Shown here piece after piece: positions 31,086-33,191 of a stretch of DNA of 33,715 nt. This DNA comes from Desulfurococcales archaeon. GTDB taxonomy: Archaea; Thermoproteota; Thermoprotei_A; Sulfolobales; Acidilobaceae. The translations under genes were made by a program, and so were the position numbers. The first letter of the stretch is position 1. Each line of letters opens with the position of its first letter. The stretch is from positions 1 to 33,715 of the forward strand of contig WAOQ01000046.1 of the NCBI GenBank assembly GCA_015521205.1, written 5' to 3'. The notes below the pieces were generated by a model. The model searched no databases. It was not told the origin of the DNA and saw nothing but the letters and a program-made list of their open reading frames with translations.

Positions 31086-31694
31086 TTGGTAGTTGATGAT
31101 GTGGTGAAGGATTTGTCCAGGGTAAGACGGGGACAGCAAGTGTTGCCTATAGAGGATATTCTGGCAAAACCTGTGGAGATAGCCTCAAAGATACTTGATA
31201 TCACAAAAAATCATTGTTCGATAGAAATCGTGCAGAGGCCTGGAAAAATATTTGTAGAGAACATAATGACCGGGGATACTTACACAGTAGTAGTAGGGCG
31301 GGGTTCTATAGTCTTACCTGATAAGTGTCTCTTGGACTTCCCCGAGGTGTATTTGGTTGCTAGAGACGAGTGGCTTGATACTTGCAAGATCGACAAGGTC
31401 GGTTATTTTGGTGTAACAACTGGAAAGTCGGAAGGCATTGTTGATGGTGTGATGACGTCTTTTACCCTAAAGATGATATATCCTATGACTGTTAATGGTT
31501 TCCGTGCTGGTCGCGTCCAGTATCTGGGTTTACAGAGGGGAGACGAGGTTATACTGGGGATCGACTGTAAGCCTGAGATACCCCTCATAGTTTACCGTGG
31601 AAACGAACTTATAGTATCGAATAGTCTTTCCTGGTTGATACCATTGTTACAGCTGGAATCACGGTGCAGTCATTATAAGTTCCTGTCAACATAA
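31086..31694 (+). CDS. Hypothetical protein
   Basis: 202-aa ORF, weak TTG start; no recognised family. Confidence 0.55.
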   Translation: MVVDDVVKDLSRVRRGQQVLPIEDILAKPVEIASKILDITKNHCSIEIVQRPGKIFVENIMTGDTYTVVVGRGSIVLPDKCLLDFPEVYLVARDEWLDTCKIDKVGYFGVTTGKSEGIVDGVMTSFTLKMIYPMTVNGFRAGRVQYLGLQRGDEVILGIDCKPEIPLIVYRGNELIVSNSLSWLIPLLQLESRCSHYKFLST

Positions 31695-31696
31695 TA

Positions 31697-31790
31697 GGTA
31701 GTATAGGGGGATGACCTAGCTACCCTATATTGAACCACCCTTAAAGGGGTGGATGGCAGAAACCGACCTCGGGGACCCCCGGTTAACTGT
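31697..31790 (+). ncRNA. Candidate multi-hairpin intergenic RNA/leader of the wHTH gene
   Basis: TATAGGG/CCCTATA (31702-31708/31723-31729) competing with GGTAG/CTACC (31697-31701/31720-31724); CCACCC/GGGTGG (31735-31740/31747-31752); GGCAG-AACCG...CGGTT-CTGTC (31756-31790). Confidence 0.45.
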
Positions 31791-31805
31791 CGTGGCAGGG
31801 GAAAA

Positions 31806-32099
31806 ATGATGGTGCTGTGGCCCGACAAGAGGGAATTGACGGCATTTATTATATTGGCCTCGAAAACGGGGAAGACTCTAAATTTGGGCGAAGCACAAGA
31901 TATCCTGGCTAAAGAACTGTGCATTTCTAGGCGTGTCGCACGTTCTATCCTGAAAAAGCTGAGAAATCTAGGTCTGGCAAGGATAAAGTTGTTAAAAGAA
32001 GAAGTTCAAGTAGAACTACTTGACCTCGAGGAAGGAATGAAGATGTTAGCCGAAAGGTATGCTACTGAACGACGTTTAAGACACAATTGTAATGTTTAA
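31806..32099 (+). CDS. Small winged-helix DNA-binding protein
   Basis: TLNLGEAQDILAKELCISRRVARSILKKLRNLGLARIKLLKEEVQVELL: wHTH. ATG 31806 is a more plausible start than the track start 31749. Confidence 0.65.
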   Translation: MMVLWPDKRELTAFIILASKTGKTLNLGEAQDILAKELCISRRVARSILKKLRNLGLARIKLLKEEVQVELLDLEEGMKMLAERYATERRLRHNCNV

Positions 32100-32110
32100 C
32101 GCACTAAATG

Positions 32111-32179
32111 GTGCGGGATGATGAAGGCTGTACTCGGAGACGCTATGAGTATGATCTTGCCTTTAAGTTCTGACCGCAC
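32111..32179 (+). ncRNA. C/D-box 2'-O-methylation guide sRNA
   Basis: Terminal stem GTGCGG (32111-32116)/CCGCAC (32174-32179); C box ATGATGA (32118-32124); D box CTGA (32170-32173); D'-like CGGA (32135-32138) and C'-like GCTATGA (32142-32148). D guide TTGCCTTTAAGTT is complementary to 16S AACUUAAAGG. Confidence 0.88.
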
Positions 32180-32216: not shown

Positions 32217-33191
32217 ATGAGGCTTCGGCTTCCAAAGACCAAGGAATTGGAAGGGAAAACATTTGATACTGTTATTATAGGTGGGGGACCGGCCGGTTTT
32301 TCTGCTGCGATATACACGAGCAGGTTTCTAATGAGTAGCTTAGTCATAGCAGAGAATGTCGGGGGACAACTTACTTTGACCGACAAGGTGGATGACTACC
32401 CAGGAACTCTTGAGGTCCCAGCAGCAGATCTTGTTAGAAATTTCAAAAAGCATGCAGAAATGTTTGGTACTAGGGTTCACTGGGGTGACAGAGTAGAAAC
32501 CTTCAAGCGTTTAGAGGATGGTAGGTATGAAATACTTACCCGGCGTGGACTGAAACTTTACGGGAGAACCGTGATTGTTGCTATAGGTTCAAAAAGACGA
32601 AAGCTAGGTGTTCCTGGTGAAAGAGAATTCGCCGGTCGTGGAGTTAGTTACTGTAGCGTATGCGATGCACCATTCTTTGCCGGTAAAGAAGCAGTTGTAG
32701 TTGTGGGAGGAGGAGACGCTGCCTTTGAAGGGGCTCTCATGTTGTCTGGTTATGTGAAAAAGGTGTACCTTGTACATAGAAGAAAACAGTTTCGTGCAAA
32801 GCCCTTCTACGTTGAAAAGGTTCTCACACTGCCTAATGTTGAGATACTAGTAGATACTGTTGTAGAGGAGATCCGGGGTGAAAAGACCGTTAACGAAGTA
32901 GTAGTGAAAAATAAGATTACTGGCGAAAAGAAAGCGCTAAAAGTTGATGGTGTTTTCATTGAGATAGGTTTCGAGCCCGACATAGAATGGGCTAGAAAGA
33001 ATGGATTGAATACCGATGAAAGAGGATATATCGTAGTTGATGAGTGGATGAGGACAAACTTGCCGGGAGTTTTCGCTGCGGGAGACTGTACAACAATGTG
33101 GCTTGGATTCCGCCAAGTTGTCACTGCTGCGGCTATGGGTGCTGTAGCTGCTTACTCGGCATTCAACTATCTGGCAGAACATGGTGGCTAG
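32217..33191 (+). CDS. trxB: Thioredoxin reductase (FAD/NAD-linked)
   Basis: TVIIGGGPAGFSAAIYTSRF...GGQLTLTDKVDDYPG, redox CSVCDAPFF, VVVVGGGDAAFEGALML, GVFAAGDCT. Confidence 0.95.
   Translation: MRLRLPKTKELEGKTFDTVIIGGGPAGFSAAIYTSRFLMSSLVIAENVGGQLTLTDKVDDYPGTLEVPAADLVRNFKKHAEMFGTRVHWGDRVETFKRLEDGRYEILTRRGLKLYGRTVIVAIGSKRRKLGVPGEREFAGRGVSYCSVCDAPFFAGKEAVVVVGGGDAAFEGALMLSGYVKKVYLVHRRKQFRAKPFYVEKVLTLPNVEILVDTVVEEIRGEKTVNEVVVKNKITGEKKALKVDGVFIEIGFEPDIEWARKNGLNTDERGYIVVDEWMRTNLPGVFAAGDCTTMWLGFRQVVTAAAMGAVAAYSAFNYLAEHGG

Follow-up and report, generated by a model that had tools for sequence, protein, structure and literature searches.

Archaeal C/D-box sRNAs assemble with L7Ae, Nop5 and fibrillarin on two kink-turn motifs, and the base that is methylated in the target is the partner of the fifth guide base before the D or the D' box. 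The dual-guide members of this class are characterized by C, D', C' and D boxes, 12-nt guides, a D+5 target and a terminal stem, and the locus described here shares all of these features and does not differ from the class in kind. Predicted methylation sites are especially dense in a few regions of 16S rRNA, one of which is helix 27 (h27) (Dennis et al. 2015, PMC4644070). The sRNA sR56 of Pyrobaculum calidifontis has, like our locus, a D guide predicted to direct methylation there, at 16S alignment position U894 (PMC4644070 Table 3), whereas its D' guide is predicted for G1358/G925 and not for the 5' strand of h27. Position U894 was converted to E. coli position 912 with an offset of 15: at G530 (position 507), A1408 (1395) and U912, the alignment numbers lie 15 above those of the 16S of a single intronless relative; with one relative compared, an error of one base is possible. 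As U894 maps to 912, the U912 site has probably already been predicted elsewhere, so it is probably to be counted as a known predicted target, in the same way as the kind of RNA and the h27 hotspot are known. In N. equitans, the dual guides sR17 (helix 28) and sR15 (helix 30) likewise address the two opposing strands of a single 16S helix, and a chaperone role has been proposed for them (PMC4644070); they differ from the present case in the helices concerned, whose strands lie far apart in sequence. Beyond Dennis et al. (2015) and a 2021 review, we found no literature on RNA-guided methylation of h27, and no description of the guide pair 891/912 was found in the main texts consulted.

The DNA analyzed, referred to here as the window, is a stretch of 33,715 nucleotides from a Desulfurococcales archaeon. 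The host assembly comprises 769 kb, is 55% complete, and has an Acidilobaceae MAG as its nearest named relative. Searches for the 16S and 23S rRNAs and for fibrillarin in this 55%-complete assembly found none of them, and we infer the host's own 16S sequence at the target sites. The sRNA is unannotated in this sequence, its kind being well known among archaea, and is placed between the stop codon of a wHTH-like gene (32097-32099) and the start of a trxB-like gene at 32217. Its elements follow each other in the order GTGCGG-G-ATGATGA-AGGCTGTACTCG-GAGA-CGCTATGAGT-ATGATCT-TGCCTTTAAGTT-CTGA-CCGCAC (Table 1).

Table 1 Features of the sRNA locus and of the neighbouring genes, in coordinates of the window.
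Feature	Position	Strand	Basis or remark
wHTH-like gene, upstream	31806..32099	+	start assumed at ATG 31806; stop 32097-32099
C/D-box sRNA gene including both stem arms, 69 nt	32111..32179	+	model R1, 75 bits; orthologs
Terminal stem, 5' arm GTGCGG	32111..32116	+	stem covariation
Bulge base G between 5' stem arm and C box	32117	+	
C box ATGATGA	32118..32124	+	window sequence; orthologs
D' guide AGGCTGTACTCG, 12 nt	32125..32136	+	pairs with 16S GAGUACGGCC
D' box GAGA, degenerate CUGA	32137..32140	+	NNGA in most orthologs, CTGA in some
Spacer between D' and C', CGCTATGAGT		+	window sequence
C' box ATGATCT	32151..32157	+	RTGANNA in orthologs
D guide TGCCTTTAAGTT, 12 nt	32158..32169	+	pairs with 16S AACUUAAAGG
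D box CTGA	32170..32173	+	window sequence
Terminal stem, 3' arm CCGCAC	32174..32179	+	window sequence; stem covariation
trxB-like pyridine nucleotide-disulphide oxidoreductase gene, downstream	32217..33191	+	Pfam PF07992, 1.6e-52

A preliminary description of the locus, made from the letters of the window, had proposed a C/D-box sRNA with a C box, a D box and a 6-bp GTGCGG/CCGCAC stem, and these elements held up as a kink-turn-spaced unit in the wHTH-trxB gap: the C box fits RUGAUGA, the D box fits CUGA, and both stand in kink-turn geometry with the 6-bp terminal stem. The 3-nt bulge of the kink-turn consists of G32117, A32118 and T32119. The internal C' and D' boxes, which had also been proposed, are present in the ortholog alignment, degenerate in the window and nearer to the consensus in the orthologs. 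Their exact placement had to be corrected in one case, as the D' box had been read as CGGA (32135-32138), two bases off; this reading is ruled out by the alignment, in which the D' box is NNGA following ACTCN, and GAGA is the correct box. The boundary of the D' guide shifts with the box. With GAGA as D' and ATGATCT as C' in the ortholog comparison, the guides adjoining D and D' are therefore both of the standard length of 12 nt, within the expected 10-12 nt. In the predicted fold, the sRNA can form a long hairpin (z = -3.36) that hides the D' guide, which can pair internally with GAGTA at 32147-32151.

Only one RTGATGA..CTGA unit of the window, the sRNA at 32111-32179, has a stem of 5 bp or more at kink-turn spacing. 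A comparable unit with a 6-bp stem was absent from all of 400 windows generated with a first-order Markov model, so that the expectation for such a unit is below about 0.0025 per window. At the gathering threshold, Rfam gave no match for the window sRNA or for the scanned orthologs; the best sub-threshold matches were C/D snoRNA families, namely sR41 with 16.3 bits and SNORD52 with 13.5 bits.

To collect homologues, 301 bases around the locus were used as a query against 60 related genomes. Six other genomes matched, each match being confined to the sRNA (within positions 156-223 of the query). An alignment (A1) of 21 orthologs was made from wHTH neighbourhoods in the family and two matches from another family of the order. 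The pattern used for the collection fixed part of both guides, and the invariance of those columns is no independent evidence; boxes, spacing and stem were left free. The 21 orthologs share the order C, 12 nt, D', a variable spacer, C', 12 nt, D, with NNGA after ACTCN as D' and RTGANNA as C', and their terminal stem varies in sequence yet stays paired. In this stem, 20 cells were changed on both sides, compared with 8.1 after shuffling (0/500), and slid controls gave lower values. A covariance model (R1) yielded strong matches (E<=5e-9) in five families of the order (f1, f4, f6, f7, f9); those in the Sulfolobaceae-like family f11 were weaker (E about 1e-4). Treating the f11 matches as weak noise was considered and dismissed, because they share the D guide with the exact C'-D spacing. 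In these orthologs (e.g. L115), the D guide CCTTTAAGT has U912 at D+5 as in the window, and the D' guide ACTCCCCAG addresses the same h27 strand, differing by a shift of about 5 nt that puts its predicted site at about G886.

The pattern of C', a 12-nt guide and D (TGANNANNCCTTTAAGTNCTGA) was found in 44 of 400 genomes of the phylum and in 0 of 400 with the reversed control. A complete dual guide is present in family f35, placed only as belonging to the same phylum, and in families f31 and f22 the D guide is unchanged but is combined with an unrelated D' guide, GCTTCACC. The f31 and f22 loci (L145-L159) represent a second sRNA type that keeps the U912 D guide; visual inspection suggests that its D' guide could pair with the 16S h44 strand near 1485-1494 (GGUGAAG). 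The D' guide GGCYGTACTC is kept within f1, f4, f6, f7, f9 and f35, even in those f9 genera in which the D guide drifts. As judged from these comparisons, the predicted sRNA is conserved in many related archaea, with orthologs across the order. In one genome, two copies of the sRNA (L102 and L103, G106:C3) share their D' guide but differ in the D guide, an apparent duplication with guide drift.

The wHTH gene is a conserved neighbour of the sRNA in Acidilobaceae, where the sRNA is often located at its 3' end; a Pfam search with the wHTH-like gene of the window (31806..32099) gave no match. In five Acidilobaceae genomes (L007, L014, L015, L018, L020) the UGA that ends the wHTH gene coincides with the first UGA in the C box, and in L003, L019, L022 and L024 the wHTH reading frame continues into the sRNA. 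Overlap of the C box with the stop codon of the upstream gene is typical of archaeal C/D genes (PMC7994747), a further likeness of these orthologs to the class. With trxB as bait, a search of GTDB contigs retrieved no sRNA and a single close locus, L031, which is truncated. The wHTH-trxB gap of genome G014 (L010, 1860-1910) contains a shortened, probably decayed form of the sRNA, consisting of TGATGA followed by AGTCTTTAAGTT, with CTAA replacing the D box and no recognizable D' guide. Small genes at 31086-31694 and 31749-32099 of the window, beside a sucC-like gene, have no Pfam match, and a relative (L012) shows a similar arrangement.

Targets of the two guides were searched in the rRNA operons of three relatives. 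E. coli numbering was assigned from the 907-926 primer site. In the relatives' 16S, the D guide TGCCTTTAAGTT pairs 10/10 with AACUUAAAGG (908-917), and U912 is at D+5. The D' guide AGGCTGTACTCG forms 10 pairs, one of them G-U, with GAGUACGGCC (E. coli about 888-897), which puts U891 at D'+5; orthologs with GGCCGTACTC pair with this target free of wobble. Guide complementarity extends through D+5 in the relatives' 16S. Since the guides pair with 908-917 and 888-897, they address opposite strands of h27, and sites 891 and 912 themselves fall on opposite strands near the decoding centre. In all three relatives, each guide finds its best rRNA site within h27, at 891 for D' and 912 for D, 21 nt apart. 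Among random 12-mers from the window, 6% reach the score of the D guide and 12% that of the D' guide, and a single guide match to rRNA is weak evidence when taken alone. The comparison across relatives is what settles the targets, and this weakness does not extend to the joint finding, made in each relative tested, of two sites within one helix at a distance of 21 nt.

Guide-target covariation at 912 is the strongest test of the predicted target assignment. U912 predominates among the genomes of the order, and an A stands opposite it at D+5 in all readable orthologs whose genomes are known to have U912. The 16S of f9 genera g22 and g45 has C912, and G replaces the guide A in 7/7 of these genomes, which, given the relatedness of g22 and g45, may reflect just one or two events. 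The four g45 genomes retain the D+5 register, with other mismatches present; in the three g22 genomes, 2-3 nt are inserted before D, and the modified base would move to 909/910. Two genomes of genus g11 have an altered 16S (ACUUUAAGG), and a search of this genus for orthologs whose guide compensates for the change was negative; its one match, in G019, shows no D' box and has a long gap between its two segments. Phylogenetic conservation and guide-target covariation were both found, and they support membership in the C/D class without strictly defining it. The orthologs and this covariation bear out two claims of the preliminary description, namely that the D guide targets 16S AACUUAAAGG and that D+5 is the second U of ACUU at E. 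coli 912; with stem covariation, they also confirm the identification as a C/D-box sRNA. The D' guide, for which no target could then be named, in fact pairs with GAGUACGGCC on the other strand of h27.

The D-guide duplex overlies 16S site 908, a known intron insertion locus in Aeropyrum and others (PMC4496867), and pairing with the D guide would extend across the splice junction. Introns at 908 were found in seven genomes of the order (G012, G021, G016, G059, G090, G130, G141), and the sRNA is present in 0/7 of them, compared with 28/57 intronless genomes (Fisher p = 0.015, relatedness ignored). Genus g13 includes two intron-bearing genomes without the sRNA and four others with it; the 16S of these four was not found in their assemblies. 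It is conceivable, though on balance unlikely, that sRNA-guided methylation and an intron are mutually exclusive within the same stretch of ten bases, a deeply conserved h27 dual guide being lost or incompatible where a mobile intron occupies site 908.

We consider it highly probable that the locus encodes a dual-guide C/D-box sRNA whose D guide would direct Um912 and whose D' guide would direct Um891, on both strands of h27. This reading rests on RNA anatomy, orthology, stem covariation, guide complementarity in relatives and covariation at 912, all of them observed at the level of sequence; expression, protein binding, methylation and a chaperone role are what we infer from it. An intergenic hairpin, an mRNA 3' UTR element or a chance motif would agree with the long-hairpin fold and with the lack of an Rfam match above threshold. 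Such an origin appears extremely improbable and is already disfavoured by the comparison, as the orthologs keep the boxes, the spacing and the guides and have a terminal stem that covaries; a chance motif would account for none of these features.

Within the C/D class, it might be asked whether only the D guide is active, at U912, with the D' guide serving as a weak or non-methylating anchor. The GAGA box of the window points in this direction, as do the G-U pair and internal pairing of its D' guide, the shift of the Sulfolobaceae D' guide next to an unchanged D guide, and the f31/f22 loci, where the D guide stays and the D' guide is unrelated. Against this, GGCYGTACTC is kept across six families and the 12-nt spacing is preserved, and we regard a sole activity of the D guide as doubtful. 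A role as an h27 folding chaperone is plausible because the guides occupy both strands of this helix, as has been proposed for other dual guides (PMC4644070), and it might even be the primary one, with methylation secondary. The covariation at 912 follows the D+5 base, which fits methylation, although a role in pairing only would covary too; taken together, chaperoning as the primary role seems quite improbable.

According to the dual-guide reading, the sRNA would probably derive either from the wHTH transcript, at its 3' end, or from a nearby promoter of its own, and L7Ae, Nop5 and fibrillarin would assemble on its two kink-turn/k-loop modules. The D guide on 16S 908-917 would then place a 2'-O-methyl group on U912 and the D' guide on 888-897 one on U891; the sRNP would probably keep the h27 strands apart during assembly, and the strands would close after methylation. 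The predicted sRNA would almost certainly serve to direct the methyltransferase to the two strands of a single hairpin in the decoding core of the ribosome.

Mutations in E. coli tie this segment of helix 27 to decoding fidelity and the streptomycin response, and methyl groups at 912 and 891 would sit within it. With a guide family that persists in an archaeal order, and whose D guide also occurs in other families of the phylum, the role of such a methyl group becomes tractable to test, as does the idea of dual guides as folding chaperones. The sRNA adds an unannotated family of non-coding RNA that is reached by no Rfam model.
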